Positions 5,123 through 47,871 of a DNA stretch of 64,000 nt are shown here, piece after piece (position 1 is the stretch's first letter; each line of letters opens with the position of its first letter). The notes under the pieces are model-generated. The model was not told the DNA's origin, searched no databases, and saw only the letters and a program-made list of their open reading frames with translations. The stretch covers positions 682,001-746,000 of the forward strand of contig NZ_JAMCOJ010000001.1 of NCBI RefSeq assembly GCF_023476645.1, written 5' to 3'. The position numbers were made by a program, and so were the translations under genes. The stretch is from Cellulophaga sp. 20_2_10. GTDB taxonomy: Bacteria; Bacteroidota; Bacteroidia; Flavobacteriales; Flavobacteriaceae.

Positions 5123-5158
5123 ATTTTTTAACGTCTAAATCTTTAATTGTATCTAATT

Positions 5159-24189: not shown

Positions 24190-24210
24190 ACTACTTTTAA
24201 TGTTGGGGTT

Positions 24211-24218: not shown

Positions 24219-24232
24219 CAATTTTAACGTAA

Positions 24233-24262: not shown

Positions 24263-24324
24263 ACTAACTTAAACAATTACGCTACAAACTTAATTCCAGA
24301 CGTTTACACCCCTATTTTTAGTGA

Positions 24325-26776: not shown

Positions 26777-26838
26777 CTATGTACTGATATTTGGATTTTT
26801 AATAATCAACCAACTAAAAACCAGTACATAGGCCTATG
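26777..26838. repeat. Inverted repeat and start-codon palindrome before the CapK-like gene
   Basis: CTATGTACTG (26777-26786) is exactly complementary to CAGTACATAG (26822-26831). The right arm runs into the perfect 12-base palindrome CATAGGCCTATG (26827-26838), whose last three bases are the ATG of the next gene. In mRNA either pairing would place the start region in or next to a stem. It may affect translation or be an operator; the 35-base loop is long for a stable hairpin. Confidence 0.4.
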
Positions 26839-30500: not shown

Positions 30501-31103
30501 ATGTACATTAATTTTTTTAAAAGACTATTAGATTTTCTTCTTGCCGGTTTAGGATTTATTTTCTTATTCCCGCTATTCTTTACTGTTGCCATTGTTCTAT
30601 TCTTTTTAAACAACGGAAAAGTTTTCTTTTTTCATCCTAGACCAGGTAAAAATGAGAAAATATTTAAAGTAATTAAGTTTAAATCTATGACCGATAAAAA
30701 AGATGCGAACGGAGAATTATTACCGTTTCATTTACGAGTTACAAAATTTGGAAACTTTATACGTAAGTATTCTTTAGACGAAATACCACAATTGCTAAAT
30801 GTTTTAAAAAATGACATGAGCCTTGTTGGTCCTAGACCCTTATTGGTAGAGTACTTGCCATTATATAATAGTTTTCAAAAGCAAAGACATTTGGCAAAAC
30901 CCGGAATTACAGGCTGGGCACAAGTAAATGGTAGAAATTCTATTTCTTGGGAACAAAAATTTGAGTTAGATGTTTGGTATGTAGAAAACAGATCTTTTAA
31001 AACGGACTTTAAAATTATACTCTTAACCGTAAAGAAAGTGTTTTTTAAAGAAGGTGTTAATAATAGTGACAACCTAAACATGACTACGTTTACAGGGTCA
31101 TAA
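30501..31103 (+). CDS. Initiating undecaprenyl-phosphate sugar phosphotransferase (PglC-like)
   Basis: A small polyprenyl-phosphate hexose-1-phosphate transferase, 200 residues, of the monotopic PglC type. A re-entrant membrane helix near residues 5-35 (LLDFLLAGLGFIFLFPLFF) is followed by FKVIKFKSMTD, the DE catalytic dyad in YSLDEIPQLLNVLKNDMSLV, GPRPLLVEYLPLY and KPGITGWAQVNGRN. It starts each repeat unit by moving a phosphosugar from UDP to undecaprenyl phosphate. It is the only initiating transferase in the window. It is immediately followed by the PglD-FemAB fusion gene. Confidence 0.92.
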   Translation: MYINFFKRLLDFLLAGLGFIFLFPLFFTVAIVLFFLNNGKVFFFHPRPGKNEKIFKVIKFKSMTDKKDANGELLPFHLRVTKFGNFIRKYSLDEIPQLLNVLKNDMSLVGPRPLLVEYLPLYNSFQKQRHLAKPGITGWAQVNGRNSISWEQKFELDVWYVENRSFKTDFKIILLTVKKVFFKEGVNNSDNLNMTTFTGS

Positions 31104-31151: not shown

Positions 31152-32882
31152 ATGAGAATAAAAAACACCGTTATATTAGGGTCTGGTTCTTATGGAGAAG
31201 TTTTTTTAAATTATTTAAAAGAACAAGGACACAACGTTATTGGTTTTTTTGATGATAATTTAAATAATAGCAAAAAAATAATCTTTGGTGTACCTGTCAT
31301 AGGCACATTCAATGATTTGCTAACTGAAAAATCAAAAAAAAATATTGATTACATATACTGCCCAATTGGAGATAATGAAATACGATATAAATATTTAGAA
31401 AAATTGATGGATTATGGATATGATATTCCAAACTTCATACATAAATCTGTAATCTTCGAGAGTGAATCAATAAAAGGTAAAGGTATTTATTTATTGCCAG
31501 GTGTTATTATTATGCCTCATACCATAATTAAAAGTTTTGTCATAATAAGTATGGGAAGTAAAATTGCACATCATACAATAATTGAAGATGGTGTGTTTGT
31601 ATCTACTGGAGTTAATGTTGGCGCCAACATAACGATAAAAAGAAAATCTTTTTTAGGAATTAGTTCAACTATTATGACAGGTGTAAATAGTGTCGGTGAA
31701 AATGCAGTCATTGGCTGTGGTGCAGTGGTTATTCGTAATGTAGAAAAAAATCATATTGTAGCCGGTGTTCCCGCTAAAACATTGAAAATAAAAAAAAATG
31801 TTGCAACAAAAAAGAAAGCTAAAGAATACAATTTATTTGTAAAAGAATTAAAAACATTAGAAGAAATAAATATCTATAAAGAATTATTAACTAATTACTG
31901 GTGTGATAACGTATACTACAGCTATGAGTATTTAAAGTATTATGAAAATTCTACTGATGAATTGCGTTATTTTTTACTAACTGAAGACGGTATACCGGCT
32001 ACAATAATGCCATTTTATATTCGTAAAATTGATGGTATTGAAAATTATAAGGATGTAATTACACCGTATGGCTATGGCGGCCCTTTATGTAAAGATTGCT
32101 CTAAAACCAAAATATTAAACCATTTTTGGTCCATGGTAGATGGTTGGTATTATAAGAACAATATTGTATCAGAATTTGTACGTTTTAACCTTAATGGCAA
32201 TCATGTAAACTACACAGGAGAGCTGTCTGCAACCTTGCGTAATGTAAAAGGTACCGTTAAAGAAAATGATGAGGACCAATGGAACGCTTTTTCTACCAAG
32301 GTTAGAAATAATTATAGAAAAGCAGAAAGCCACGAGCTTACATTTAAAATATGGGAAGGTAAAGATATTACAGATAGCGTAATTACAGCATTTCATGATG
32401 TGTATATAGAAACAATGGAACGCAACCATGCTAGTGCTATCTATTTTTTTCCAAAACAATATTTTGAAAGTATAATATATACAAACCGCGATAATTTTGC
32501 TATTGCAATAAGCTACAAAGACGGCATAGCTGTTTCTGTAGAACTTATAATTATAAACAATAGTACGCTTTACGCATTTTTAGGAGGTACACGCGCTGCA
32601 TATTTTGAATGCAGACCAAATGATTTTTTAAGAGTTGAGATCCTAAAATGGGCTGTACAACAAGAAAAGAAATCCTATATTCTTGGTGGCGGGCTAAAAG
32701 ATGATGACGGTTTATATAAAAGTAAAAAAGTATTTTTCCCTAAAGATGATGATGTCATTTTCTATACCGGAAGAAAAATAATAAATAAAGAAATATACGA
32801 CTCACTATCTGAACCTACTGTTTCTGCCACAGCATGTGATGAAGTTTGTAATTATTTTCCAACCTATAGAAGACCTTACTAA
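31152..32882 (+). CDS. Fusion: PglD-like sugar N-acetyltransferase + FemAB-like GNAT domain
   Basis: Two proteins in one frame of 576 residues. Residues 1 to ~215 are a PglD/NeuD-type acetyltransferase: a Rossmann-like domain (VILGSGSYGEVFLNYL; GFFDDNL), then left-handed beta-helix hexapeptide repeats (LLPGVIIMPHTIIKS; AHHTIIEDGVFVSTG; GCGAVVIRNV) closing with AGVPAKTLKIKK. Residues ~225-576 are a FemAB-like domain: YYSYEYLKYYENS, TPYGYGGPLC, KVRNNYRKAE and the closing LGGGLKDDDGLYKSKKVFF. The second half resembles the next gene product. PglD would acetylate a UDP-4-amino sugar made by the PglF/PglE-like enzymes. The FemAB half suggests transfer of an aminoacyl or acyl group. The fusion is in clean frame with no sign of a sequencing error. 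Confidence 0.82.
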   Translation: MRIKNTVILGSGSYGEVFLNYLKEQGHNVIGFFDDNLNNSKKIIFGVPVIGTFNDLLTEKSKKNIDYIYCPIGDNEIRYKYLEKLMDYGYDIPNFIHKSVIFESESIKGKGIYLLPGVIIMPHTIIKSFVIISMGSKIAHHTIIEDGVFVSTGVNVGANITIKRKSFLGISSTIMTGVNSVGENAVIGCGAVVIRNVEKNHIVAGVPAKTLKIKKNVATKKKAKEYNLFVKELKTLEEINIYKELLTNYWCDNVYYSYEYLKYYENSTDELRYFLLTEDGIPATIMPFYIRKIDGIENYKDVITPYGYGGPLCKDCSKTKILNHFWSMVDGWYYKNNIVSEFVRFNLNGNHVNYTGELSATLRNVKGTVKENDEDQWNAFSTKVRNNYRKAESHELTFKIWEGKDITDSVITAFHDVYIETMERNHASAIYFFPKQYFESIIYTNRDNFAIAISYKDGIAVSVELIIINNSTLYAFLGGTRAAYFECRPNDFLRVEILKWAVQQEKKSYILGGGLKDDDGLYKSKKVFFPKDDDVIFYTGRKIINKEIYDSLSEPTVSATACDEVCNYFPTYRRPY

Positions 32883-32893: not shown

Positions 32894-33928
32894 ATGATGA
32901 AAATAATAGGAAATAAAAAAGAGTGGGATGCTCTTTTAGATAAGGTAGCTGGGTATGATTTTTATCATACCTATGACTACCATATCAATTGTGCGCATGA
33001 TCATGAAGAGATTGCACTTATTTCCTATACAACACAAGACACTATTATTGCATTTCCTATACTTATAAGACCTATTAAAAACAGTTCTTTTTTTGATGTT
33101 ACTTCGGTGTATGGTTATGGAGGGCCGCTAAGTAAAAACATAACAGCAGAGACCAACCTTACTCCGTTTTACAACAAGCTACGCATCTATTTTCAGAAGA
33201 AGCATATCATATGTGCCTATAGTAGTTTAAACCCATTTATAGACAATCAGAAAAGAATTTTATCTGGTCTAGGAAAAATTGAAAACATAGGTAAAATAGT
33301 AAACCTAAATCTAAAGCAAACCTTAGAAGAACAAGAGGCTAATTTTTCTAAAACCACAAAGCGATATATTAATAGAAACAAAAAATTGTTTTACTCTAGA
33401 ATTGGTAAAACAAAAGAAGATGTTGCTATTTTTATTGACATGTATTACAAAACAATGTCTAGGTTACAGGCCAGTGAAAATTATTTTTTTAAAGAAGATT
33501 ATTTCTACGATATTTTAAAAAGCGAACAATACCATGCAGAAATTGTTTTTGCGGTTACCAAAGACACCAATACAATTGCTTCTGCTGCTCTAATTATAAA
33601 AACAGATAAAACCATAATACAATATCATTTATCTGGTACCTTGGAAGAATACAAGCACCTATCTCCTATTCGGTTTATTTTAAATGAGGTACGTATACAA
33701 GGAACATTAGAAGGGTATTCTTATTTTAATCTAGGTGGTGGTTTTGGTGGAAATCACGATTCTTTATTCGATTTTAAAGCTTCGTTCTCCAATGATTATA
33801 AAAAATTTAAGGTGTGGAAATACATCCTAAATGCCAAAGAATACAATGCGTTGTCTAGTGAGAACAAAAATTTAACGCCCTTGCTTAAAACATCTTTTTT
33901 TCCGTTATATCGATACAATAAATACTAA
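32894..33928 (+). CDS. FemAB-like GNAT-fold transferase
   Basis: A stand-alone 344-residue protein similar to the C-terminal half of the preceding fusion. Both carry YGYGGPL near the first domain, a basic KRYINRNKKLF-type stretch, and the closing LGGGFGGNHDSLFDFKASFS motif (residues ~277-296), which is the FemAB/peptidoglycan-bridge GNAT signature. Classical FemABX proteins transfer amino acids from aminoacyl-tRNA to lipid II, and related proteins modify polysaccharides. Here the polysaccharide context favours modification of the repeat unit. No membrane segment or signal peptide, so it is cytoplasmic. Spacing to the fusion gene is 11 bases. Confidence 0.8.
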   Translation: MMKIIGNKKEWDALLDKVAGYDFYHTYDYHINCAHDHEEIALISYTTQDTIIAFPILIRPIKNSSFFDVTSVYGYGGPLSKNITAETNLTPFYNKLRIYFQKKHIICAYSSLNPFIDNQKRILSGLGKIENIGKIVNLNLKQTLEEQEANFSKTTKRYINRNKKLFYSRIGKTKEDVAIFIDMYYKTMSRLQASENYFFKEDYFYDILKSEQYHAEIVFAVTKDTNTIASAALIIKTDKTIIQYHLSGTLEEYKHLSPIRFILNEVRIQGTLEGYSYFNLGGGFGGNHDSLFDFKASFSNDYKKFKVWKYILNAKEYNALSSENKNLTPLLKTSFFPLYRYNKY

Positions 33929-33971: not shown

Positions 33972-34796
33972 ATGAATATTTTAGATGAAATTTTAGAGTT
34001 AAGCACAACTGTAGAAGAATTAACTACAGTAGACGCTAACTCATTTAAAAACATTCTTTTTAGTAAAAAACAACCTGTAGTTCTAAAAGGGTATGCTAAA
34101 AATTGGGGTGCAACAAAAAAATGGAGTTTAGAGTATTTAATAAATTTAGCCGATAATAAAGAAATAAGCTTACTCTCTGGTAATTACATACAAGGAGAAA
34201 CCAAATACCAAAAATCTACACTTAAGCGTTATTTAGAAAAATTAAAAGCGGCAAATACCGATGCTAACTTTAAAGACTATTTAACCACACTAGATATCTT
34301 TAACTATTTGCCTAATTTAAGTGGAGATACAGATTTTTCAATTTTTGAACAACACACTGCTGTGAATGACATAGCCGCGTGGATTGGTCCTAAAGGAACC
34401 GTTACAGGTTTCCATAACGATTCTGGAGATAACATGTACGCGCAAATTAAGGGTGAAAAATTATTTATTATTGTACCTCCTACACATGCTAAAAGCGTAT
34501 ACCCAAGTTCTAAATATATAAATGGCGCCGTAGCAAGTAAAATTGATCTTGCTAATTTTAATGCTGAAGAATTTACGAACTTTAAAAATGTTCCGTTTTA
34601 CAAAGTTATACTACAACCTGGAGATGTCTTATTTTTACCAAAAAAATGGTGGCATTATGTACAGGCCTTAGATAGCTCTATTAGTATTAGTAACTTTGGC
34701 TATACAAAACCAGAAATATTAAAAATGAGGCTCCTTAACTTTTTACATAGAAGAGGTTATTACAAACCAAATAATTGTTATTGTTGCACTAAGTAA
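33972..34796 (+). CDS. JmjC-like cupin (Cupin_8) putative Fe(II)/2-oxoglutarate dioxygenase
   Basis: A 274-residue protein with the Cupin_8 layout: KKQPVVLKGYAKNW near residue 34, TAVNDIAAWIGPKGTVTGFH then ND giving the HxD iron site near residue 150, AQIKGEKLFIIVPP, and the distal histidine in FLPKKWWHYVQAL near residue 226. Both iron ligands are present, so it is probably an active hydroxylase. The C-terminus ends NNCYCCTK, three cysteines in four residues, an odd tail for this family. It sits between the FemAB-like gene and the first of the GNAT-family paralogues. Substrate unknown; an amino-acid or acyl substituent of the polysaccharide is possible. Confidence 0.8.
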   Translation: MNILDEILELSTTVEELTTVDANSFKNILFSKKQPVVLKGYAKNWGATKKWSLEYLINLADNKEISLLSGNYIQGETKYQKSTLKRYLEKLKAANTDANFKDYLTTLDIFNYLPNLSGDTDFSIFEQHTAVNDIAAWIGPKGTVTGFHNDSGDNMYAQIKGEKLFIIVPPTHAKSVYPSSKYINGAVASKIDLANFNAEEFTNFKNVPFYKVILQPGDVLFLPKKWWHYVQALDSSISISNFGYTKPEILKMRLLNFLHRRGYYKPNNCYCCTK

Positions 34797-34853: not shown

Positions 34854-36017
34854 ATGTTTCTTACTACAAAAGATTTTTATACAGAGTTTACCGAAAATAG
34901 GCACATACTCCCCTACTACATTAAATTAGAGAGCAACTACAATACAAAAACATTTTACAGCTTAGAAGATGATGCACTACCTATTTCTAATCTAAAATGT
35001 GTTTCTATTAAATTATTTCCTAAGTATTTAACGCCCCATTTTTATACAGATGCTGGTATAGGTGTAAAAAAAGTATTTCAGAAAGATGTACATGGTTGTG
35101 CCATACATCTTACAGAGAAAACAACTATAGATTTATTTTTAAGGAAAGAGTATTCTAAAAAATTTAGAACTAGTATTAATAGATCTGTAAACAGATTTGA
35201 GCTTTGCTTTAATTACAGTTACATCATGATAACGGAAGGTATTACTGCAGAGAAATACCGCTCTTTAATGGATGCGTTACATACCATGTTAGTGCATCGT
35301 TTTAACCAAAGAAATGAGCCCAATGATGTGCTTGCAAACTGGGACCATTACTACGCTCTAGTTTTTAATTTAGTAAACACCAAAAAGGCTTCTATCTTTG
35401 TTATTTACAGCAATGACGAGCCTATAAACATTTGTATAAATTATCATTTCAATACTATTTTATTTATTTCAATCGCTTCATTTAATCCTAATTTTTCTAA
35501 ATTTTCGTTGGGTAATATTTCCATCTATAAAATTATAGAATGGTCTCTTAATAACGATTACGAATTGCTAGATATGGGGTATGGAGATTTAGAATATAAA
35601 AGATTTTGGAGCAATTACATGTACGCATATGAAAATCATATTGTGTACTCAAAAAAAATAAATTATCGTTTTATTGCCGCTATTGAGGTTTCAAAAATAA
35701 AATTTAAAAACTTTTTAAAATCGTATAAAATAGCAGAAAAACGTACTAAATTAAAAGCGTTACTTCGTGAAAATAAAAAGAAATTAAACAACAGTACCAA
35801 ATATACAACTACACCTTTAACAGACTACATTACAACTAATTTACCCACTTTAGAATATGATGACACTAGTTTTAGTCTAATAGCCAAACCTGTTTATGAT
35901 TATCTTTTTTTACAAGCTACATCTATAGATACTATTGCCATATTTGAAATAGAAAAGGCTAAAGAGTACCTAATTGTAGGCCCTAAAGCAATGGAGAAAA
36001 TAACCATAACAGCGTAA
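34854..36017 (+). CDS. CelD/BcsL-type GNAT protein, array member 1
   Basis: First of eight related proteins in 34.9-46.9 kb. It is separated from the other seven by the MBOAT and SGNH genes. The GNAT core, about residues 83-265, includes a basic helix (KKFRTSINRSVNRFE), MLVHRFNQRNE, KKASIFVIYSNDEPINICI and the closing MGYGDLEYKRFWSNYMY, which matches the Acetyltransf_6 (CelD/BcsL, BioF2-like) pattern. A charged linker is followed by a C-terminal tail from about residue 338 (FSLIAKPVYDYLF). Closest within the set is the last member at 45.7 kb: both share INxxxNYHF/ISLNYHF-type strands and an M-G-x-G-x3-YKR ending. Probably a cytoplasmic acyl or aminoacyl transferase; substrate unknown. Confidence 0.75.
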   Translation: MFLTTKDFYTEFTENRHILPYYIKLESNYNTKTFYSLEDDALPISNLKCVSIKLFPKYLTPHFYTDAGIGVKKVFQKDVHGCAIHLTEKTTIDLFLRKEYSKKFRTSINRSVNRFELCFNYSYIMITEGITAEKYRSLMDALHTMLVHRFNQRNEPNDVLANWDHYYALVFNLVNTKKASIFVIYSNDEPINICINYHFNTILFISIASFNPNFSKFSLGNISIYKIIEWSLNNDYELLDMGYGDLEYKRFWSNYMYAYENHIVYSKKINYRFIAAIEVSKIKFKNFLKSYKIAEKRTKLKALLRENKKKLNNSTKYTTTPLTDYITTNLPTLEYDDTSFSLIAKPVYDYLFLQATSIDTIAIFEIEKAKEYLIVGPKAMEKITITA

Positions 36018-36147
36018 TTTTTTTCAGTTAAGACTGGCATAAAGCGTAACTTATCTTGTATTTTAACATTTCAGCATTTTTAAGCCTATTCTAATAATGA
36101 AATAGCTAATTTAGCTTGTTACTAAGCACCTTATAACTACAACTAAA

Positions 36148-37596
36148 ATGTTATTTAATTCGTTTGAATTTTTATATTTTTTACCGCTTATTGTTATAGG
36201 TTTCTATTGCATACCTCATAAGTTTAGATGGATATGGCTACTAATTGGTAGTTATTATTTTTATATGAAATCTGAACCTGCTTTAGTTTTATTACTAATA
36301 GCATCTACTTTAGTAGATTATTTCTGTGCCCTTAGAATTTATGCTACCGATATACAAAGAACAAAAAAGATATTTGCCGGTATCAGTATTTTTGTAAACA
36401 TAGGCATACTAATAGCCTTTAAGTATTTGTTCTTTTTCTCTACGTCTCTTGCCAGTCTATTAGAATTTTTTGGAATAGCTGCACCTCTTGAAGAGGCCGA
36501 ACAAAGTTACCATATAAGTCAGATTTTACTACCCGTAGGAATTTCGTTCTACACTTTTCAGACCATGAGTTACACCATTGATGTGTATAGAGGAAATGTA
36601 AAACCAGAAAAACACTTAGGTATTTTTGCTTTATATGTGGGTTATTTTCCGCAGCTAGTTGCTGGCCCAATAGAGAGAGCATCTACTTTATTACCACAGC
36701 TAAAGAAAAAGGTAACTATTAATATTAAAAATATTGAACAAGGCCTAATTATGATGGCTTGGGGATTTTTTTTAAAAATTGTAGTTGCAGATAGATTAGG
36801 TATATATGTAGATGAAGCGTATGCAGATCCAGAAAGTCCTCACGGCTTTTCTTTAATACTAGGCGCTATCTTCTTTATGTTCCAGATCTATTATGATTTC
36901 TCTGCGTATACAACCATTGCAATAGGTACTGCTAAAATATTAGGTGTAGATTTAATGCAGAATTTTGACAGACCAATTTTCGCGAAAAATAGTTCCGATT
37001 TTTGGCAACGATGGCATATATCCCTAATGTTATGGCTTAAAGATTATATTTACTTGCCTTTAATAAACAAAGTAAAACTTAAAAAGTTAACCGCTACATT
37101 AATTGTATTTTTTATTGTTGGTTTATGGCACGGAGCCAACTGGACTTTTGTTGTCTGGAGTATGCTAAATGCCTTGCTAATTATTTTGGAAGTAAGTATT
37201 GTTAAACCTAGTAAAAAGGCATTAATTGCAAAATTTAAATTTCTAGAATTTTTCTTAAATAAAATTCATTGGTTTTTTGGCTTTGCTTACTTTTTAGTAT
37301 CTCTAGTATTCTTTAGATCTTCATCTGTATCTAGCGCTGTAGTTTACATAAAAAGTATGTTTAATTTAAGAAGTTTACATATAAACTTGCTTAACAATTA
37401 TCTAGAATTATTTTTATGCGTACTTTTTATAATCATTGTACAACTAATTCATTACTACAAAGGAAACGATAAAGTCTATGAGCTAGTTTTAGATAAACCT
37501 CAATACCGTAAATGGCTCATATGCTTTGCTTATATCTTAGTTATTGTGTTATTTGGAATTAACAGACAGAACTCTTTCATCTATTTTCAATTTTAA
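36148..37596 (+). CDS. MBOAT O-acyltransferase (AlgI/PatA-like), copy 1
   Basis: Polytopic inner-membrane protein, 482 residues, that would pass acetyl groups across the membrane for O-acetylation of the polysaccharide. AlgI hallmarks are LPVGISFYTFQTMSYTIDVY (near residue 130), YFPQLVAGPIERAS, FQIYYDFSAYTTIAIG, FWQRWHISLMLWLKDYIYLP and the catalytic histidine in VGLWHGANWTFVVW near residue 328. It ends in SFIYFQF, as does the second copy at 47.9 kb. The SGNH partner gene follows directly, starting 5 bases after its stop. A 130-base gap lies upstream. Confidence 0.92.
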   Translation: MLFNSFEFLYFLPLIVIGFYCIPHKFRWIWLLIGSYYFYMKSEPALVLLLIASTLVDYFCALRIYATDIQRTKKIFAGISIFVNIGILIAFKYLFFFSTSLASLLEFFGIAAPLEEAEQSYHISQILLPVGISFYTFQTMSYTIDVYRGNVKPEKHLGIFALYVGYFPQLVAGPIERASTLLPQLKKKVTINIKNIEQGLIMMAWGFFLKIVVADRLGIYVDEAYADPESPHGFSLILGAIFFMFQIYYDFSAYTTIAIGTAKILGVDLMQNFDRPIFAKNSSDFWQRWHISLMLWLKDYIYLPLINKVKLKKLTATLIVFFIVGLWHGANWTFVVWSMLNALLIILEVSIVKPSKKALIAKFKFLEFFLNKIHWFFGFAYFLVSLVFFRSSSVSSAVVYIKSMFNLRSLHINLLNNYLELFLCVLFIIIVQLIHYYKGNDKVYELVLDKPQYRKWLICFAYILVIVLFGINRQNSFIYFQF

Positions 37597-37600
37597 TCTT

Positions 37601-38560
37601 ATGAAACATTTCTTATTAAAAATAATTCTGTTTTGTGTAGTATTAGCTGGTGTGTACTTTAGTTTTATGTATAAAGTATCTAATGGCTATGTAGATGAAA
37701 ACTATCCGAAATTTTGCCAAGAAGCAGGAAGCCTTATCATAGGAGTATCTACTGCCAGTCAAGGGATTTCGCCTCAAATATTGGAAGACAATTTAAGTGA
37801 GTTTAATTTAGAGAAACCAATGGTTAATTTTGCCATTAACTTTGAGCAATCTCAGTACGGAGACACCTATTTAAACGCTATAAAAAAGAAGTTAAAAAAA
37901 TCGGACAAGAACGGTTTATTCATTTTATCTGTTTCTCCTATTAGTTTTAGCTCCGTCAAAAACTTAGAGGAATCTGCTATAGAAAAACTAGATCAAGAGA
38001 AAATTCTGGGTAAAATTACTAATTTTACTTCTGCTCCAAATTTTGATTATATTAGTAATTGTTATCCTATTTCTTTATACAATGCATTTTACCCAACCAA
38101 TAAATGGGATAACTTAGTAGTACACCCTGACGGATGGAACGAGTTTAAATTAAAAAGTGAATCGTATACCGTTACCAAAGAAGATATTAGTGATTGGAAA
38201 AAAAAGACAATAGAATTTCAAGATAAATTTTTAAAAACACAAAAAATAAGTAAAACTAGATTTTTAAGCTTTACTAAAACAATAGACTTTTTAAAACAAA
38301 AAGGAACTGTTTTTATAGTACGCATGCCCTTAACCCCAGAAAGTCTACAACTCGAAAATGAAGAATGGAAAAATTTTAATTTTCAGTTTGACAGCATTGC
38401 CAAAGTAAAAAACATTTCGTTTTTAGATTATTCTGAAACAAATTCTGAGTACAAAACATATGATGGAACGCATATGGTATCTGAAAGTGCTAAAAAGTTT
38501 AGTAAAACCTTAAGCGATGATGTTAAAAGTATCCTTTTATCTGATTCCATAAAAAAGTAG
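37601..38560 (+). CDS. SGNH-like periplasmic O-acetylation partner (AlgJ/X- or DltD-like), copy 1
   Basis: 319 residues from the ATG at 37601. An earlier in-frame ATG at 37544 lies inside the MBOAT gene and lacks signal character. An N-terminal membrane anchor (LKIILFCVVLAGVYFSFMY) puts the catalytic part in the periplasm. The block-I nucleophile is in LIIGVSTASQGI (Ser50) and the Asp-His pair in YDGTHMVSESA (Asp288, His291), so a catalytic triad is plausible although the GDS form is replaced by GVS. Overall similarity is to DltD/AlgJ-type partners of MBOAT proteins. It directly follows the MBOAT gene. Confidence 0.72.
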   Translation: MKHFLLKIILFCVVLAGVYFSFMYKVSNGYVDENYPKFCQEAGSLIIGVSTASQGISPQILEDNLSEFNLEKPMVNFAINFEQSQYGDTYLNAIKKKLKKSDKNGLFILSVSPISFSSVKNLEESAIEKLDQEKILGKITNFTSAPNFDYISNCYPISLYNAFYPTNKWDNLVVHPDGWNEFKLKSESYTVTKEDISDWKKKTIEFQDKFLKTQKISKTRFLSFTKTIDFLKQKGTVFIVRMPLTPESLQLENEEWKNFNFQFDSIAKVKNISFLDYSETNSEYKTYDGTHMVSESAKKFSKTLSDDVKSILLSDSIKK

Positions 38561-38572
38561 TTCTATTAAAAA

Positions 38573-39820
38573 ATGATACACAACAATCCTTTTCTTAGCA
38601 AAACATTTCTAAAGAAGTGGTTTCGTCATTTTTTAGATGACCAAAAGGAAGTATCATTTAAACTATTTCCGGACCTTACCTTTTTTAAAAGCGCTAAAAA
38701 ACCAATATTCATAAATAGTGCGAAGACAAATACAAAAGGAATTAGTTACACTATTGCAACGAAAGAAAGTGATACTACCTTAAAAAAGACCTTTTTAATC
38801 TATGATGTACACTCCTTTTTTAACACCCCAAGTGTTTTAAACGACACTAGATATAAAATAAAAAAAACGGTACAATACCCTGGTTACTTATGTGAGTTAG
38901 AAGACTTTTTAAGTGTTAAGGAGTACATGCAAAAAAGGCTAAGCAAAAATAGTAATTACAAGTTTAATCTCTACAAAAGAAAGCTAGAACACTCTTTTGA
39001 CATTCGATATAACATGTATTATGGAGCCATTACTAAAGAAAAATACAATTTTCTTTTTTCTGTCTTTAAAAAGTTACTTGTAAAACGTTTTAATGACAAA
39101 CAGGAGACTAATAATAATTTAAACCCAAAAGAATGGGACTTTTATTTTGATGTTACCTACCCAATGCTGCTAGAGAAAAAGGCTGCATTATTTGTTACCT
39201 ACAACAAGGAAACACCCATTGCAATTACCTTATTGTATTTTTCTGACACTATTGCCTTTGATACCATTAGAGTGTTTGATATTGATTATGCGCCCTTTAG
39301 ACTTGGTACTATTAGTATTATAAAACAACTAGATTGGTGTATTACCAATGGTGTTAAGTTTTTAGATTTCTCTAAGGGTTATTACGAATATAAAGAACGT
39401 TGGGCAACAACAACGTATAATTTTGAATACCATATTATTTATGATTCTAAGTCTATGGTATCTAAGGCTACAATGGGCATAACCTTACTTTTTTTCAAGT
39501 TTAAAAATTATTTAAGGGATAAAAACATTCATAAAAAATTTCATCAACTTACTTTTGCCCTTAAAAACAATACTAAAAAAACAGAAAAAATAATTCCTGT
39601 AAAAAACAATACAACTCCAGTAAAAGAAAACTTAAAAGAGATCCCTATTTTTGATACTGAAAATGAAAATCTTTTAAAATATGTATATGCTTTTTTATAC
39701 AAGAAATCAGAAAAATTAAATGATATAACGCTCTATAAAATAACAGACCAACGAAATTGTTATTATATTAAAGGGGTACAAAACGTTGCTACTTTTATAG
39801 CTTATAATTTAGAAGAATAA
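38573..39820 (+). CDS. CelD/BcsL-type GNAT protein, array member 2
   Basis: Longest member (415 residues) and first of the seven uninterrupted copies; it starts 12 bases after the SGNH gene. Core signals: NYKFNLYKRKLEHSFDIRY, ITKEKYNFLFSVFKKLLVKR, KAALFVTYNKETPIAITLLY, FDIDYAPFRLG and FSKGYYEYKERWATTTYNF. A lysine-rich linker (residues ~310-355) is followed by the shared tail with LLKYVYAFLY and YYIKGVQ. There is no membrane segment or signal. The N-terminal ~100 residues are the least conserved part and may set substrate specificity. Confidence 0.75.
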   Translation: MIHNNPFLSKTFLKKWFRHFLDDQKEVSFKLFPDLTFFKSAKKPIFINSAKTNTKGISYTIATKESDTTLKKTFLIYDVHSFFNTPSVLNDTRYKIKKTVQYPGYLCELEDFLSVKEYMQKRLSKNSNYKFNLYKRKLEHSFDIRYNMYYGAITKEKYNFLFSVFKKLLVKRFNDKQETNNNLNPKEWDFYFDVTYPMLLEKKAALFVTYNKETPIAITLLYFSDTIAFDTIRVFDIDYAPFRLGTISIIKQLDWCITNGVKFLDFSKGYYEYKERWATTTYNFEYHIIYDSKSMVSKATMGITLLFFKFKNYLRDKNIHKKFHQLTFALKNNTKKTEKIIPVKNNTTPVKENLKEIPIFDTENENLLKYVYAFLYKKSEKLNDITLYKITDQRNCYYIKGVQNVATFIAYNLEE

Positions 39821-39828
39821 GGTACCGT

Positions 39829-40770
39829 ATGCTTGAAAAATATTTCTCAAAAAAATTAACAAACTTTGTTTTCTGTCTATTTATAGAGAGAAGCAAGCCT
39901 TCATTTTTTGATGATACCTTATACAACTCAATTACAAGCACCCCTATTACAGGAACTAAAAGCTTGGATCTTGATTCGTCTAGCAGACACCTTGTCCTAA
40001 ATATACCAAGTTACATACAACTTACCGAGCACAAAGAAAATTTAGGGAATTTAAGATGTATAGATGTACCGCAATACAAAGGCTTTTTAGTAAACCTTAA
40101 GGGCCAAGATAGTGCTGCTAATTTTTTGCAAGATCAGCTAAGTAAAAGAAATCAGAAAAATTTACGCTCCAAACAGAAAAAACTAGAAAGCAGCTGTAAA
40201 ATTACAAGCAGTGTTTATTTTGGCGATATTGAAAAAGATACTTATTCCTTAATTTTTAAAACATTTTATAGCTTATTAAAAGACAGGTTTGACCAAAAAA
40301 AGACCCATAACAGATACCTTGCAGATTGGGATAACTTACAAGCTTATGTGTATCACAAAATTCTAAAAAAAGAAGCGTCACTATTTGTTTTGCACGACAA
40401 TGAAAAGCCTATTGGCATTACTTTAAATTTTCATATTGGAGATATCGTTTTTAGTCATATACAAGCCTATGATGTTGACTATGCTATATATAACATAGGA
40501 GATATTTGTATGGTAAACCATATTACTTGGTGCATACAGCATAATGTTAGTATTTTTGATTTGTCTATGGGAGAGACCTATTACAAACTAAAATGGAGTA
40601 ATTACCAGTATCACTTTTACAATAGATTGTACTACAATAACAACGCTATAGTAGATATGGCTTGGGTAAAAATAACCCTTCTAAAATTTAGATTATTACA
40701 GTATTTAAGAGATAAACAAATTCTAGGAAAATACTTTTCTTTAGACAAACTCTTGTACAAACTTAACTAA
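39829..40770 (+). CDS. CelD/BcsL-type GNAT protein, array member 3 (tail-less)
   Basis: Shortest member, 313 residues. It has the full GNAT core (KNLRSKQKKLESSCKI; VYFGDIEKDTYSLIFKTF; KKEASLFVLHDNEKPIGITL; YDVDYAIYNIG; LSMGETYYKLKWSNYQYHFY) but stops after KYFSLDKLLYKLN, so the linker and C-terminal tail found in the other seven are absent. The reading frame ends cleanly at a TAA and the next gene starts 38 bases later. I see no remnant of the tail in those 38 bases, so this looks like a natural form rather than a recent frameshift. Confidence 0.75.
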   Translation: MLEKYFSKKLTNFVFCLFIERSKPSFFDDTLYNSITSTPITGTKSLDLDSSSRHLVLNIPSYIQLTEHKENLGNLRCIDVPQYKGFLVNLKGQDSAANFLQDQLSKRNQKNLRSKQKKLESSCKITSSVYFGDIEKDTYSLIFKTFYSLLKDRFDQKKTHNRYLADWDNLQAYVYHKILKKEASLFVLHDNEKPIGITLNFHIGDIVFSHIQAYDVDYAIYNIGDICMVNHITWCIQHNVSIFDLSMGETYYKLKWSNYQYHFYNRLYYNNNAIVDMAWVKITLLKFRLLQYLRDKQILGKYFSLDKLLYKLN

Positions 40771-40808
40771 TAAAAAAACTAGGCTTAGGCTATCGTAAAT
40801 AAAAAAAG

Positions 40809-41987
40809 ATGTTAATAAACATAGACTTTCTAGACCGTATACTTCTAAAGCCAAAGGCTTTATCGGTTTTCTATGTTCAATTAAAAAATAAGATTACCAC
40901 TAGCGTTCTCTATACAAACAAGTCTGCTACGCCTTTAGATTTTAATAAAAAAGCATACCTATTTGATGATGTTCCAGGTTATATAGCACCAACAATTGCC
41001 ACAAATAACAACATAAAACTTATAAAGCTTAACACCTATAAAGGTTCTATGATTAATTTAAGTGCCTATGAAAGTGTTGATCACTATTTAAAAGCAAATT
41101 TTAGTAGTGACAGGAGGTCTAAATTTAAAACATACAAAAAGAGATTAGATAAGTGCTTTAATATTACCTATAAAACTTATTATGGAAATATAGATAAAGT
41201 AGAATACGATCGTCTATTTGTGTGTTTTTCTGAAATGATAAAAACTAGGTTTGAGGATCTAGAAGCAAACCATTATGCGCTAGATAACTGGAGTCTTTTT
41301 GAAGACAATTGTTATGATTTAATTCACGCCAAGAAAGCTACTTTATTTGTAATTTATGATAGTAATAAACCTATAAGTATTTCTTTTAATCCTGTATTAG
41401 GTGATGTTGCTTATGGCTACCTTAGATCTTTTGATATTGACTATTCTAAATTCTATCTTGGGTTTATAGACACCATATGGGAATTAGAATGGTGTTTTTT
41501 AAATAAGATTGCCTTTTTTGATTTGCTAAAAGGATCTTACGCTTACAAAGCAAAATTTACAAACACCTCTTATTTCTTTCAAAAGCAAATAGCATTTAAT
41601 CCAAAATCTTTACGCTCATCTATTTCTGCTGTTGCACAAGCTTTTAAAGTAAAGAGCTTCTATACCTTAATTAGTTTCTTAAAACTCCTAAACATAGATA
41701 GCGTATACCATAACTTTAGAAACAAAAAAAAGGCCGCGCAGATAAATAGCAAAAAAGAAAAAAGCCCCTATTCTGCTCTGGACAATACGGTAGCTGCTGT
41801 TTCTACTAAAAATACCCAAGAAATAAATATGAATTCCAATGAGTATTCATTTTTAAAAAAACCAGTGTACGATTTTCTATACACGAGTCAAGAATCTATA
41901 AACAATACAACTGTATACAAGATACTAGAAGAAGACAATGCCTATATAGTTAAAGGATTAAATAAGAACAGAAAAATAATGTATTAG
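40809..41987 (+). CDS. CelD/BcsL-type GNAT protein, array member 4
   Basis: 392 residues. Core at about 85-265: basic helix RRSKFKTYKKRLDKCFNITY (101-120), YYGNIDKVEYDRLF, KATLFVIYDSNKPISIS (176-192), FDIDYSKFYLG and LLKGSYAYKAKF (239-250). The usual Trp after YKxx is Phe here and in member 5. The linker spans ~300-342. The shared tail is at 344-388 (FLKKPVYDFLYTSQE, then VYKILEEDNAYIVKG). Members 4 and 5 are a close pair: 23 of 29 positions agree across the YKKRL...YDRLF segment. A recent duplication is likely. Confidence 0.75.
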   Translation: MLINIDFLDRILLKPKALSVFYVQLKNKITTSVLYTNKSATPLDFNKKAYLFDDVPGYIAPTIATNNNIKLIKLNTYKGSMINLSAYESVDHYLKANFSSDRRSKFKTYKKRLDKCFNITYKTYYGNIDKVEYDRLFVCFSEMIKTRFEDLEANHYALDNWSLFEDNCYDLIHAKKATLFVIYDSNKPISISFNPVLGDVAYGYLRSFDIDYSKFYLGFIDTIWELEWCFLNKIAFFDLLKGSYAYKAKFTNTSYFFQKQIAFNPKSLRSSISAVAQAFKVKSFYTLISFLKLLNIDSVYHNFRNKKKAAQINSKKEKSPYSALDNTVAAVSTKNTQEINMNSNEYSFLKKPVYDFLYTSQESINNTTVYKILEEDNAYIVKGLNKNRKIMY

Positions 41988-42042
41988 TGAATCAGTTTTT
42001 AGTACATATCGTTTTAAAAAAGTTAATTAAAACTATTCTTCT

Positions 42043-43236
42043 ATGAGGCATATCGATTTTTTTGACCTTCTTTTAGTATCCAAAGATTTTGCTTTCTATT
42101 TTAAAAAAATAAAAAGTAAGGTCTCCAAGAATGTACTATACACAAACACGGAGCCTTCTTTATATAAGCCAAGTAAGGAAGTGTACAAAATAGTAGACAT
42201 CCCTGATTATATGGAAGTAGAATTACATAACAGTTCTACTAAATTAAAAAGTATAGATATAAACACCTATAAGGGATCTATGGTTAATTTAACCAAGTAT
42301 AGCAACCTTAAAGAGTTCCTTACTAAACATTTTAATGCAAAAAAAAGAGCTCAATTTAACACCTATAAAAAACGATTAGAAAAATGCTTTAACATAAGCT
42401 ATAAAGTCTATTTTGGTAACATTGAAAAGGCGGAATATGATCGTCTTTTTAAAAAGTTTCCTGAAATGATAAAAAAACGTTTTGACCTACTAGGTACGGA
42501 GCATTATGATTTAGCTGTTTGGGATAGGTACGAGCAAAATAGCTTTTCTTTAATAAATGAAAAAAGAGCATGTCTATTTGTAATTTATGATGGCAACAAC
42601 CCTATTAGCATCTCGTTAACTCCAGTAATGGGCAAAGTTTTATACGGCTTTGTAAGAGGTTTTGATGTTAACTACTCTAAATTTTATCTAGGATTTACAG
42701 ATTTAATTTTTCAATTAGAATGGTGCTTCAACAATAATATGGAAGTTTTTGATTTAGTCAAAGGTGTTTTCCCTTATAAATCCAAGTTTACAAATAGTAC
42801 GTATTACTTTCAGAATAAAATAATATACAATACTACATCTGTATCATCTACCTGTATTGCTTTGGCTAAATCTTTAAAAATTAAAAGCTTTTATTTTATA
42901 GTCAAATTGCTCAAAAAAATTAATATAGATACCCTATACCATAGCTATATAAATAAAAAGAATGATGAAAAAAAGATTGAAAAGCTCAGTTTAAATAACG
43001 AATGTATGTTGTACAAAACAACAATCTTAACTTCTGATTTTATAGTCTCTAAAAACCATAACACAATAGATATACGTAAAAGTGAAAATTCTTTTCTAAG
43101 AAAAACTGTTTATGACATTCTATATACTTTGCAAGAACCCATTACTTCTATTACTATTTATAAAGAAACAGAGGAACGTTATATTTTAAAAGGAATAAAA
43201 AAAAGCTATAAAATAACCGCAACTAAAGCACTGTAA
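42043..43236 (+). CDS. CelD/BcsL-type GNAT protein, array member 5
   Basis: 397 residues. Close sister of member 4: FNTYKKRLEKCFNISYK, YFGNIEKAEYDRLF, RACLFVIYDGNNPISISL, FDVNYSKFYLG, LVKGVFPYKSKFTNSTYYF. It shares with member 4 the Phe in place of Trp after YKxx and an N-P/T-P-V strand before the core centre. Linker ~305-345. The tail has FLRKTVYDILYTLQE and YILKGIKK. The next gene begins two bases after its stop, so the two are surely cotranscribed. Confidence 0.75.
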   Translation: MRHIDFFDLLLVSKDFAFYFKKIKSKVSKNVLYTNTEPSLYKPSKEVYKIVDIPDYMEVELHNSSTKLKSIDINTYKGSMVNLTKYSNLKEFLTKHFNAKKRAQFNTYKKRLEKCFNISYKVYFGNIEKAEYDRLFKKFPEMIKKRFDLLGTEHYDLAVWDRYEQNSFSLINEKRACLFVIYDGNNPISISLTPVMGKVLYGFVRGFDVNYSKFYLGFTDLIFQLEWCFNNNMEVFDLVKGVFPYKSKFTNSTYYFQNKIIYNTTSVSSTCIALAKSLKIKSFYFIVKLLKKINIDTLYHSYINKKNDEKKIEKLSLNNECMLYKTTILTSDFIVSKNHNTIDIRKSENSFLRKTVYDILYTLQEPITSITIYKETEERYILKGIKKSYKITATKAL

Positions 43237-43238
43237 CT

Positions 43239-44420
43239 ATGGCTAAACATACTAAAACTGTATTTTTAAAAGGCCTGTTTTTTAACGACAACACCTTGCC
43301 TTTTTTTGAAAAAATAGCATACCAAACAAAAACGATATACACCACAAAAAACACCAATATAAAATATAACAAAAACACATTTTATGAGGTGGTTGATGTA
43401 CCAGATTACTTAGATATAGATATACCTAACGAGGCCGTAAAATTAAAAAAAATACAATTAAAAACACTTAAAGGCTATTTAGTTGAAACAAAAAAATATA
43501 CCACAGTAGAAGAATACCTTACGGCTAATTTTGGCACTAAAAGCAGGTCTAATTTAAGACGCTATAACAATAGGCTAGAAAAATGTTTCAACATTACTTA
43601 CACTTGTTATTACGGAGATATCTCTAAAGAAAAATACAATAGTTTATTCGTAGCTCTTAAAGCTTTATTAATTAGACGGTTTGAAGAAAAAAAAGAAAAC
43701 AACTATGAGTTGCGTCACTTTGATGAATACCAGGATACCATCTACAATTTAATTGTAAAGAAAGAGGCTAGCATTTTTGTTATTTATAATGACCAAAAAC
43801 CTATTAGTATACGCATTAATATGTTTAAGGAAACACTTGGCTACTACATCATGAGTTGCTATGATATAGATTACTCTAAATTTCATTTAGGTTCCTTAGA
43901 TATGCTTAAAAACATAGAGTGGTGCATAAAAAACAACATCATAACATATGATCTTCTAAAAGGTTATGATTATTATAAAAAGGATTGGAAAACCACTACT
44001 TTTGATTTTTACAACTACCTAATTTATGATCCTAGCGCTATACAAGCTACGTTTAATGCTTATGCTAAAAAAGCAAAAACAAAAGCTACGTACAAAATTT
44101 ACGATACGCTAAAAAAAATACATTTTATTACATACTATAAAAAAGTAAAGCAAAAATTACACAGAAAGGCACCTAGCGTTAGTACAGAAAAAAAAGTAAC
44201 GCACACTAAATTAGAAGTAAACGAACGAACTGCGAACAGTGTTCAACTAGATTTTGATAAGAATGAAGCTTATTTTTATTTAAAAAGACCTATTTTTAAT
44301 CTGCTCTTTACGTCTCAAGAACATTCTAAAGATATTAAGGTTTATAAAAACTTAGAAGATGTAAATAATTTCTACGTAATAGGAAAAAACAATAAGTGGT
44401 CTTTACATCTTATAGATTAG
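43239..44420 (+). CDS. CelD/BcsL-type GNAT protein, array member 6
   Basis: 393 residues. Core signals: KSRSNLRRYNNRLEKCFNIT, YYGDISKEKYNSLFVALKAL, KEASIFVIYNDQKPISIRIN, YDIDYSKFHLGSLDMLKNIE and LLKGYDYYKKDWKTTTFDF, with the usual Trp. The N-terminus FLKGLFFNDNTLPFFEKIAY matches those of members 7 and 8. The tail begins FYLKRPIFNLLFTSQE and ends YVIGKNNKWSLHLID. Cytoplasmic, basic protein; substrate unknown. Confidence 0.75.
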   Translation: MAKHTKTVFLKGLFFNDNTLPFFEKIAYQTKTIYTTKNTNIKYNKNTFYEVVDVPDYLDIDIPNEAVKLKKIQLKTLKGYLVETKKYTTVEEYLTANFGTKSRSNLRRYNNRLEKCFNITYTCYYGDISKEKYNSLFVALKALLIRRFEEKKENNYELRHFDEYQDTIYNLIVKKEASIFVIYNDQKPISIRINMFKETLGYYIMSCYDIDYSKFHLGSLDMLKNIEWCIKNNIITYDLLKGYDYYKKDWKTTTFDFYNYLIYDPSAIQATFNAYAKKAKTKATYKIYDTLKKIHFITYYKKVKQKLHRKAPSVSTEKKVTHTKLEVNERTANSVQLDFDKNEAYFYLKRPIFNLLFTSQEHSKDIKVYKNLEDVNNFYVIGKNNKWSLHLID

Positions 44421-44500
44421 ATCGTACTTACACAACCATGATCACAATACTTATTTTAAACAAAGCGTTACACTTATAGATCGCGTTTTAGTAAACATTT

Positions 44501-45709
44501 ATGTTAAACAATTTGGAACCACATACTAAATTTTCATTTTTCCTTGATCTCTTTTTTAAAGACAAGACTTTTCCGTGGTTTTATAATAAAATAACAAATA
44601 ACTACTTAAAAACTGTTGTTTACAATAGCGATCATACGCTGCATAAAACAGCTACTATAGAAACGTGTATTGTATATGATATTCCTAATTATTTAGACAT
44701 AAAAACCACAATACAAGAGGCCGACTTAAAAGAAATTAGATTCCCTCTTTACAATGGCTATGCCGTTTATTTTGGCAATCATGCTACTTGCGATGCTTTC
44801 TTACATGACCAAGTAGGTAAATCTAGAACAAACAAGCTTAGAAGACATCAAAATAGACTAGACTTATCTATTGCCCCAACCTATACTATGTATTACGGTG
44901 CAATTGAAGAAATAGAATACAAAAGGTTATTTAAAGAATTAAAACGAATAACAGCCTTACGTTTTACCCAAAAAGAAGAGTCAAATTTTGAATTGCCATA
45001 TTTAAACTATTATGAAGAAATAATGTTTAAAATGATTCTTACCAAAAAAGCAAGTATCTATGTAATTTATGACAAAGATAAACCCATAAATATTACGCTA
45101 AATTTTATAGACGGACAAACGATGCTTCACTTTAATAGTTGTTTTGATGTTGATTATAGTATGTATAATCTAGGGCATTTAAACACCATAAAACACCTGC
45201 GTTGGTGTTACGATAATAACATAAAGTTATTTGATATGGGCAGGGGAGATTTTTTTCATAAACGTCAGTGGATAAACAAAACATACCTATACCAAGAGCA
45301 TATTATATATAATTCTAAATCTGTAACGGCTACACTAAAAGCAAAAAAAACAATCGCATTTTACAAGCTTCGTTTTAAAATGGTAGCCGTATTAAAAAAA
45401 ATGAAATTTCATTTAATATATGGCAAATACATTAAATATAAATACAGATTATTTAATAAAAAAGACACAAAAAATAACCACATATACACTTTAAGTACTG
45501 GTGTAGCCATACCAAAAGATGCAAACATAGTTCAGATTAATTATTTAGATGAAGAATACAACAACCTCTTATTTTATGTAAATGATTTTTTACACAAGAA
45601 TTTTGAAAAAAACTCAGCTATTTGTGTTTACAAAGACACTAAATTAGCGAACACTTATTATATTAAGGGTGAAAAAAACACTCAAAAGATACGTATTAAA
45701 TCATCATAA
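44501..45709 (+). CDS. CelD/BcsL-type GNAT protein, array member 7
   Basis: 402 residues, preceded by an 80-base gap, one of the largest inside the array. Core signals: SRTNKLRRHQNRLDLSIAPT, YYGAIEEIEYKRLFKELKRI, KKASIYVIYDKDKPINITLN, FDVDYSMYNLGHLNTIKHLR and MGRGDFFHKRQWINKTYLY, where the usual YK is replaced by HK. The tail carries NNLLFYVNDFLHKN and YYIKGEKNTQ. It appears intact. Its core-closing motif is the most divergent of the set. Confidence 0.75.
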   Translation: MLNNLEPHTKFSFFLDLFFKDKTFPWFYNKITNNYLKTVVYNSDHTLHKTATIETCIVYDIPNYLDIKTTIQEADLKEIRFPLYNGYAVYFGNHATCDAFLHDQVGKSRTNKLRRHQNRLDLSIAPTYTMYYGAIEEIEYKRLFKELKRITALRFTQKEESNFELPYLNYYEEIMFKMILTKKASIYVIYDKDKPINITLNFIDGQTMLHFNSCFDVDYSMYNLGHLNTIKHLRWCYDNNIKLFDMGRGDFFHKRQWINKTYLYQEHIIYNSKSVTATLKAKKTIAFYKLRFKMVAVLKKMKFHLIYGKYIKYKYRLFNKKDTKNNHIYTLSTGVAIPKDANIVQINYLDEEYNNLLFYVNDFLHKNFEKNSAICVYKDTKLANTYYIKGEKNTQKIRIKSS

Positions 45710-45728
45710 ATAGTTAGAATACCCTGCA

Positions 45729-46892
45729 ATGATTTCAACCAATAAAATAATATTTAACACACACTTATTCAAAGGTAATTCTATCCCTGCTATAGTTACT
45801 TCTCTAACCTATTTTAACGAGCAGCTAGAGAACACTACGAGTAACAATGCTATAAACACCAAGAACTTATCTTTAAGTTTGGTGCCAAGTTATATTAAAC
45901 TACACATAAAAGACACTACTATAGCGCATAAAATAATAACTCAGAACAATTGGGGTTATGCTATACATTTAAATTCAGATTCTACAATTGACACTTATTT
46001 ACAACGTCAATTTAAGTCTAAATACAGAAGTATAATTCGTAGGTATGTAAATAGGTTAGAAGCTTGTTTTTCTATAACCTACAAATTGTATCATGGTGAT
46101 ATTTCTAAAGATACTTACGATTTTATTTTTAACTCGTTAAAAGAAATGATTGTAAATAGATTTAAACAAAGAAATGAAGAAAACAAAGAGCTCTATAAAT
46201 GGGATGTTTTACGAGATGAAACTTACGAGAAAATTAAAAACAAACAAGCTTCCCTTTTTGTTATTTATGATGAAGACAAACCTATAGAAATTTCTTTAAA
46301 CTATCATTTTGGTACTATGTTATTTAGTACTATTTCCTCTTACGACATTAATTATTCTAAATTTGGATTAGGTCATGTTGAAATATACAAACAAGTAGAA
46401 TGGTGTTGTGCTAACAACTATGTTCTTTATGAAATGGGCGTTGGTGGTATGGATTACAAAAGAAGGTGGAGCGATACAATTTATAATTTTGAACACCATA
46501 TTACGTATTCTAAAACCAGTCTACTGTCTAAGATTAAAGGAGAAACAGAGATCTTTAAAATAAAGCTTAAAGAAAATTTAAAGGCGAAAAAACTAAATGA
46601 AATAATTCCGAACCTTAAAAACAAGTTTTTAAAAGGCAAACAATTTGAAGAAGCGGATGAAAACATTACTGTTTCTGCAATAACAAAAACCAACGGTACA
46701 GAACAATTTAATTTAAATAGTTCAAAAGAAATTGCAATTGATACTACGGACTATAATTTTTTAAAAAAATACATGTATGATTTTGCTTATACAACTACAA
46801 AGCACGTAGATACTATAAAGACATATCTAATAGAAGAGAACAATTACCTAATTGTGAGTGAAAATGAATATCAAAAAGTTAGCAAAAACTAA
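45729..46892 (+). CDS. CelD/BcsL-type GNAT protein, array member 8
   Basis: 387 residues, last of the array and the same length as member 1, which it resembles most: AIHLNSDSTIDTYLQRQF, YRSIIRRYVNRLEACFSITY, MIVNRFKQRNEENKEL, KQASLFVIYDEDKPIEISLN, YHFGTMLFSTISSYDINYSK and MGVGGMDYKRRWSDTIYNF. The tail is FLKKYMYDFAYTT then YLIEENNYLIVSENEYQ. Its stop is 14 bases from the convergent SGNH gene, with a short AU-rich inverted repeat between them. Confidence 0.75.
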   Translation: MISTNKIIFNTHLFKGNSIPAIVTSLTYFNEQLENTTSNNAINTKNLSLSLVPSYIKLHIKDTTIAHKIITQNNWGYAIHLNSDSTIDTYLQRQFKSKYRSIIRRYVNRLEACFSITYKLYHGDISKDTYDFIFNSLKEMIVNRFKQRNEENKELYKWDVLRDETYEKIKNKQASLFVIYDEDKPIEISLNYHFGTMLFSTISSYDINYSKFGLGHVEIYKQVEWCCANNYVLYEMGVGGMDYKRRWSDTIYNFEHHITYSKTSLLSKIKGETEIFKIKLKENLKAKKLNEIIPNLKNKFLKGKQFEEADENITVSAITKTNGTEQFNLNSSKEIAIDTTDYNFLKKYMYDFAYTTTKHVDTIKTYLIEENNYLIVSENEYQKVSKN

Positions 46893-46912
46893 AATAGTAG
46901 TGATCACTATTT
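46892..46912. terminator. Weak inverted repeat between convergent genes
   Basis: AAATAGT pairs with ACTATTT around a 7-base loop, overlapping the stop codons of both converging genes. The stem is short and AU-rich with no U-tract, so termination here is only a possibility. No better terminator is seen. Confidence 0.25.
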
Positions 46913-47869: not shown

Positions 47870-47871
47870 AT

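Follow-up and report, generated by a model that had tools for sequence, protein, structure and literature searches.

The transferases of the FemABX family (FemX/FemA/FemB and MurM/MurN) work on a single precursor through several paralogues, each specific for its position. Fem-like enzymes are also linked to exopolysaccharide synthesis: according to the accessible text of PMC5362036, the GNAT/Fem-like HfsK of the Caulobacter holdfast occurs as three paralogues, two of which are reported as not cross-complementing, and requires its C-terminal extension for function. Here we describe a related gene system in a 64,000-nucleotide stretch of Cellulophaga sp. 20_2_10 (contig NZ_JAMCOJ010000001.1, positions 682,001 to 746,000; hereafter the window), which carries an array of eight genes of one family. 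The array is genuine as a gene system, and it is both conserved and unusual. With a probability of roughly 0.55, we read it as a cassette of ordered genes for FemX-like double-GNAT transferases, set in a Wzx/Wzy capsule locus, with a step of its own for each enzyme. The enzyme class is already known; the new part is the ordered, nested and positional set. No report of ordered tandem FemX-like sets behind a common first member was found by searches aimed at them in open-licence literature, and the accessible portions of PMC12419801 and of the literature on related enzymes and polymers contain nothing on such arrays.

All eight open reading frames (ORFs) are present at the coordinates given in Table 1, lie on the plus strand, encode 313-415 amino acids (aa) and have no internal stops. 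Seven of them run contiguously from 38573 to 46892, spaced 2-80 bases apart, and the eighth (34854) is set apart from this run by genes for an MBOAT and an SGNH-type protein. An earlier note, made from the sequence alone, had described eight related and intact genes, seven of them uninterrupted, that share a series of motifs. The ORFs were confirmed, the motifs are present in the alignment consensus of the eight, and every member passes the Pfam gathering cut-off of PF13480, Acetyltransf_6 (25.1-46.2 bits against 22; E 2.1e-5 to 6.6e-12). Measured against the last array gene, identity is 26-34% along the whole alignment and 31-38% for local matches. A genome-wide search with this gene (E ≤ 0.001) retrieved the eight members and nothing further, and the eight-member alignment at 1e-10 likewise found eight members in the genome.

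The seven genes of the run represent six orthologue groups in the order A-B-C(-C)-D-E-F, and in a tree of 126 members the clades follow array position. Searching named genomes with group F as query yielded 36 Flavobacteriaceae loci (L085-L120) from genera that include Flavivirga, Allomuricauda, Flagellimonas, Arenibacter, Flaviramulus, Wocania, Gaetbulibacter and Hyunsoonleella; 13 further loci were distant, mostly from Deltaproteobacteria or Myxococcales, with short and weak matches. By profile assignment, 22 of the 36 contain the full A-B-C(-C)-D-E-F set in order, 17 of them from genomes outside the training of the group profiles. Departures from it are a locus without E (L086), two with A-B-E-F (L090, L092), one with B-C-D-E-F and A on the opposite strand (L091), one that starts at C at a contig end (L105), and loci with other or unassigned members in Arenibacter (L107-L109, L115, L118) and Flavivirga (L120). 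Fragments included, 33 of the 36 have four or more members, and the remaining three (L113, L116, L117) are cut by contig ends. At least 10 of the 36 stem from genomes that also occur in another sample of the analysis. Order was further assessed in a set of 72 loci from 69 genomes (the window plus 20 and 51 loci). In this set, 14 of the 15 loci with three or more A-F groups on the main strand are fully ordered and 205/215 gene pairs stand in A-F order, members that are unassigned or on the opposite strand (the A of L078, for example) being excluded from the count. The only exception, L070, has a complete A-to-F array and, roughly 5 kb away, two additional A-type genes (4331-6812, minus strand). 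Between groups, the distance matrices are correlated, with r 0.71-0.98 in six comparisons (0/1000 permutations each).

Group A is present in 67 of the 72 loci and in 24 of the 27 with one copy. The exceptions comprise two one-copy loci with an unassigned member (L161, L164), a lone B (L185) whose genome has its A at L162, a locus with Y at its start and no gene assigned to A (L154), and one without any assigned member (L163). Among two-member loci the combinations are A-A (7), A-B (6) and others (4). A comes first in 41 of 44 multi-copy loci if a leading H is skipped (38 if H is counted), compared with 17.5 expected and a maximum of 28 among 20,000 random orders. The A-to-F type shares its A with another type of array, A-Y-X-H and variants of it; within the 72 loci, H is the last gene in all seven non-Cellulophaga loci having it and lies upstream of A in three Cellulophaga. 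These counts thus indicate that A is the common first member, followed by alternative sets.

The family occurs in 4/18 genomes of the genus, the window's own included, and at least one member was found in 89 of 397 genomes of a family-level sample, in which at most four candidates per genome were scored. In a class-level sample only two of 395 genomes matched, the window's own and one more of the same family, and none of these 395 carried a member outside Flavobacteriaceae. The earlier note had held that inactivating changes in most copies in close strains would speak against its view. When 57 loci were scanned in six frames, broken copies turned up only in L118 and in one Arenibacter genome (Arenibacter sp. 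F26102, present twice as L079 and L115), in which two members are in pieces and the others are open, and widespread decay is rejected accordingly. Remaining partial matches lie at contig ends or represent members that match less of the model, and short ORFs in the ORF counts are largely an artefact of ATG-only starts.

The description of the members as diverged yet intact is borne out by the positional groups, by group-specific residues and by purifying selection. Median identity is 50% between orthologues versus 33% between paralogues of one genome, which rejects a recent tandem amplification, and the best cross-genome match falls in the same group in 180/180 cases, the group labels themselves being similarity-based. 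For seven orthologue pairs between the window and C. fucicola, dN/dS is 0.14-0.19, and it reaches 0.30 for C copy 1 against the same C. fucicola C gene. That gene is the sole C of C. fucicola and shares 63% and 69% identity with the window's two copies, so the genus has seen either the loss or the gain of a C copy. Conservation within groups is good at 56 columns, of which 26 hold the same residue across all groups and 9 differ among at least three; the latter include 200 and 203 (strand 197-205) and 236-238 (strand 233-238), which sit just before the invariant Lys244.

The fold was taken from one AlphaFold model, that of the F member (predicted local distance difference test, pLDDT, 92.2), whose C-terminal module consists of one helix and three strands and is absent from B. 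In a Foldseek search FemX ranked first (E 2e-8). Among the best 50 of 83 matches at E ≤ 0.001, the first 29 comprise 24 to FemX/FemA, MprF-type, Sbb17/Sba18 or ATE1 structures, six of these being chains of one putative lysyl-PG synthase, and five of unknown function; the first acetyltransferase appears at rank 30. Of the GNAT assignment in the earlier note, a GNAT-type fold therefore stands, as a predicted double-GNAT nearest FemX rather than a classical single GNAT. The label is less well supported in the acyl-coenzyme A (acyl-CoA) sense, since the [QR]xxGx[GA] CoA pyrophosphate loop near Gly215 was found in 0 of 118 aligned members, in a search without positive control, and the nearest solved folds are aminoacyl-tRNA-dependent. 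Sub-threshold matches were obtained to PF04339 (FemAB_like) for one member and to PF04377 (ATE_C) for two of the eight. Arg144, Gly215 and Lys244 are invariant in all 118 members, position 243 is Y or F in 97, H in 17 and otherwise occupied in 4, and the basic helix is net positive throughout. Published catalytic features that may correspond are FemX Lys305 and DhpH-C Phe328-Lys329, and FemX is described as performing a substrate-assisted transfer with one Lys (PMC12945691, accessible part), a mechanism that the array enzymes may share by analogy.

The genes that accompany the array were assessed at 13 A-to-F loci other than that of the window, by counting tblastn relatives in stretches of 20 kb. 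SGNH and MBOAT genes are each found near 11 of these and the initiating transferase near 10, followed by a DltA-like enzyme (7), an uncharacterised protein, c11 (7), CapK (5), the two FemAB-like genes (6 and 4), the cupin (2) and the ATP-grasp enzyme (1); clustering gives slightly higher numbers for some, such as a looser 9 for DltA. The SGNH gene is near only 1 of 58 other loci and occurs in 24 of the 36 named loci. The recurring unit is thus MBOAT-SGNH-A-to-F, not the array with cupin and ATP-grasp genes, and the FemAB-like, CapK-like, ATP-grasp and cupin partners named earlier are not constant around A-to-F loci. In the window, MBOAT, SGNH and the seven-gene run are separated by gaps of 4 and 12 bases if SGNH starts at the ATG at 37601 (the longest ORF starts at TTG 37544). 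All 23 rows of an SGNH alignment keep Ser50 and Asp288-x-x-His291. The model of the SGNH protein has a pLDDT of 85.1, against 69-79 for the other four models, and its fold is SGNH-like; only four Foldseek matches reach E 0.001, a designed protein among them, and DltD follows at rank 12 with E 7e-3. Another MBOAT and SGNH-like pair (46907-49326, minus strand) is convergent with the array. Its SGNH-like protein has relatives near 7 of 27 loci with one copy, 12 of 21 with two to three copies, 6 of 10 others and 4 of 13 of the A-to-F type. The two window MBOATs score 134 and 146 bits against a DltB cut-off of 375. One protein of 366 aa that matches neither Pfam nor NCBIfam models (L071, 17782-18882, with relatives in 7/21 loci) co-occurs with the DltA-like adenylating enzyme near arrays.

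The array was said to lie in a polysaccharide locus, and the window does carry a Wzx/Wzy capsule gene set. Genes of the Wzc, Wza and Wzx types, an EpsG-type protein, five glycosyltransferases, a dehydratase-aminotransferase pair and one initiating transferase (Table 1) mark it as a capsule or exopolysaccharide locus of the Wzx/Wzy kind in Cellulophaga. The EpsG-family protein is likely the Wzy polymerase and the PseB-like/LegC-like pair the likely source of a 4-amino sugar. The fusion of a NeuD/PglD-type with a FemAB-like domain suggests that both activities act on the same sugar amine. A right-handed beta-helix protein (22195-24276, minus strand), possibly a polymer-modifying enzyme, has relatives near the array in 9/21 loci, the window included, on the strand opposite the array in 9/9. 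A DegT-like enzyme at 29391-30461 was discarded, as this likeness was seen by eye and found no support in Pfam, NCBIfam or PDB, and a defence role was rejected because weak PADLOC matches concerned 2/8 members only. The C. fucicola strain of the published O-chain study is, we assume, DSM 24786. A pseudaminic acid O-chain should need a NeuB/PseI enzyme. In C. fucicola two NeuB-family genes lie on a different contig from the array, which makes the array an unlikely producer of the published Gal-Glc-pseudaminic acid O-chain (PMC3210612).

Table 1. Array genes and other features of the capsule locus, with positions in the window.
Feature	Position	Strand	Remarks
Wzc-type chain-length protein/kinase and Wza-type export protein	2747..5947	-	
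PseB-like UDP-GlcNAc 4,6-dehydratase and LegC-like aminotransferase	5962..9017	-	Pfam above cut-off, NCBIfam below
Wzx-type flippase (Polysacc_synt)	11832..13361	+	
EpsG-family protein	18746..19846	+	
CapK/PaaK-like adenylate-forming enzyme	26836..28143	+	Scores below cut-offs; no Pfam match
PylC-like ATP-grasp enzyme	28166..29191	+	
Short initiating sugar-phosphate transferase (Bac_transf)	30501..31103	+	
NeuD/PglD-type sugar acetyltransferase fused to FemAB-like/PF13480 domain	31152..32882	+	
Second FemAB-like PF13480 protein	32894..33928	+	Outside array family
Cupin_8/JmjC-type protein	33972..34796	+	
Group H member, 387 aa	34854..36017	+	PF13480, tree, profile assignment
MBOAT acyltransferase	36148..37596	+	Best NCBIfam model DltB, below cut-off; directly upstream of SGNH gene
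SGNH/GDSL-like protein, N-terminal helix	37601..38560	+	Linked to A-to-F arrays
Group A member, 415 aa	38573..39820	+	PF13480; type occurring singly in other genomes
Group B member, 313 aa	39829..40770	+	Without C-terminal module; other group B members mostly 313-343 aa
Group C member copy 1, 392 aa	40809..41987	+	PF13480, tree, profile assignment
Group C member copy 2, 397 aa	42043..43236	+	47% identity to copy 1
Group D member, 393 aa	43239..44420	+	PF13480, tree, profile assignment
Group E member, 402 aa	44501..45709	+	PF13480, tree, profile assignment
Group F member, 387 aa	45729..46892	+	AlphaFold pLDDT 92.2; FemX-like double-GNAT plus C-terminal module

Most likely, each array enzyme is responsible for a separate transfer of an acyl or aminoacyl group onto a lipid-linked repeat. 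Every fixed-position gene (A to F, plus H) would then account for one step, carried out in the cytoplasm on the undecaprenyl-linked repeat ahead of flipping, with A acting first and the others later, and the upstream MBOAT and membrane-anchored SGNH pair would probably add an ester group afterwards in the periplasm. The elements of this proposal are not equally firm: a lipid-linked glycan is the probable acceptor and a separate specificity for each position is nearly as credible, an aminoacyl donor such as aminoacyl-tRNA is a tentative assignment, and action of the later enzymes on the product of earlier ones is doubtful. A-first nesting is the pattern expected from sequential action, but plain ancestry of A gives the same, and A may be first merely as the ancestral gene. 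Further observations weigh against the cassette of FemX-like transferases. TM-scores to FemX are only about 0.4 at about 11% identity, which indicates a common architecture and not membership in FemABX. Attempts to align the members with FemX residue by residue through sequence searches of the PDB produced chance matches only, the proposed equivalence of Lys244 and FemX Lys305 derives from the motif pattern instead of a superposition, and PF13480 proteins in general may have this fold regardless of donor. The window contains no tRNA genes, and DltA-like and carrier-protein genes near arrays in other genomes make acyl-carrier donors possible. Finally, the Arenibacter loci L107-L109, G385/G218 and the arrays of the A-Y-X-H type contain several members that could not be placed in a group, and the loci are related to each other, so that the counts are not independent.

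A more far-reaching version, which we consider improbable, is a non-ribosomal assembly line in which A would place the first amino acid or acyl unit on one amine of the repeat and B-F (or Y-X-H) would extend the chain from aminoacyl-tRNA, every enzyme contributing a single specified unit. If true, the capsule would bear an oligopeptide side chain of defined sequence and about six residues, set by gene content and perhaps gene order.

Alternatively, the members might N- or O-acylate different free sites of the repeat in independent steps, with acyl-CoA or acyl-carrier donors. This explanation, which is close to the view of the earlier note and which we regard as unlikely, would agree with the PF13480 label, with the CapK-like ligase in the window (scores below cut-offs), and with the DltA-like enzymes near 7/13 A-to-F loci and the small carrier-protein-like ORFs near four arrays in other genomes; two of the four such ORFs that were scanned pass the Pfam PP-binding cut-off, the ORF of L077 lying outside that scan. 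N-acyl 4-amino sugars do occur in marine polysaccharides, and one sugar amine, in N-[3-hydroxybutyryl]-alanyl-Qui4N, bears a chain of two acyl units (PMC3210612, accessible part). However, the CoA loop is missing from the 118 aligned members, and sources of amines are few: one sugar aminotransferase among 38 window proteins scores above its Pfam cut-off, and aminotransferase relatives were found near 0/13 A-to-F loci, in stretches of just 20 kb. Moreover, five glycosyltransferases and the initiating enzyme allow for about six sugars, compared with ten PF13480 proteins.

It is considerably less probable that the enzymes modify a protein or a membrane lipid and that the capsule genes are mere neighbours. 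The nearest folds do include MprF, which acts on lipid, and ATE1, which acts on protein, and two members have the sub-threshold ATE_C match mentioned above, but the window holds a Wzx/Wzy set and an initiating sugar transferase is near 56 of the 71 loci outside the window. That redundant paralogues without separate roles are kept for dosage or recombination is hardly credible, as the tandem layout and the duplication of C in several genomes are outweighed by the closer relationship across genomes than within them, by the same-group matches (similarity-based labels notwithstanding) and by purifying selection.

If the steps are sequential, the side chain becomes predictable from gene content. 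Whether CoA, a carrier protein or tRNA supplies the transferred group becomes testable with one operon in a culturable marine bacterium. Among known systems, Dlt D-alanylation resembles the window in that the MBOAT is nearest DltB and DltD is among the fold matches of the SGNH partner. It differs in that no DltA-like relative and, by pattern search, no carrier protein were found in the window, and the MBOAT remains below the DltB cut-off. The chain on a 4-amino sugar described in PMC3210612 has two units, versus six or more enzymes in the array. HfsK-type genes are not known to be arranged as a tandem ordered array, and c-di-GMP control is a feature of the HfsK system; as GNAT/Fem-like exopolysaccharide paralogues they nevertheless represent the nearest studied case (PMC5362036, accessible text). 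The aminoacyl-tRNA tailoring enzymes DhpH-C, VlmA, PacB, Orf11 and Sbb17 have a FemX-like fold as well, with a catalytic Lys in DhpH-C (PMC12945691, accessible part) to which the invariant Lys of the array members may correspond, whereas they modify small-molecule antibiotics and do not form arrays. The array is unlike FemABX in that none of its eight members matches PF02388 (FemABX) at E ≤ 1, in its capsule instead of peptidoglycan context, in its extra C-terminal module and in having up to eight members per locus. With FemABX it shares the predicted double-GNAT fold, nearest in Foldseek, and the basic helix, and the aromatic residue before Lys244 in most members may form a counterpart of the aromatic-Lys pair.

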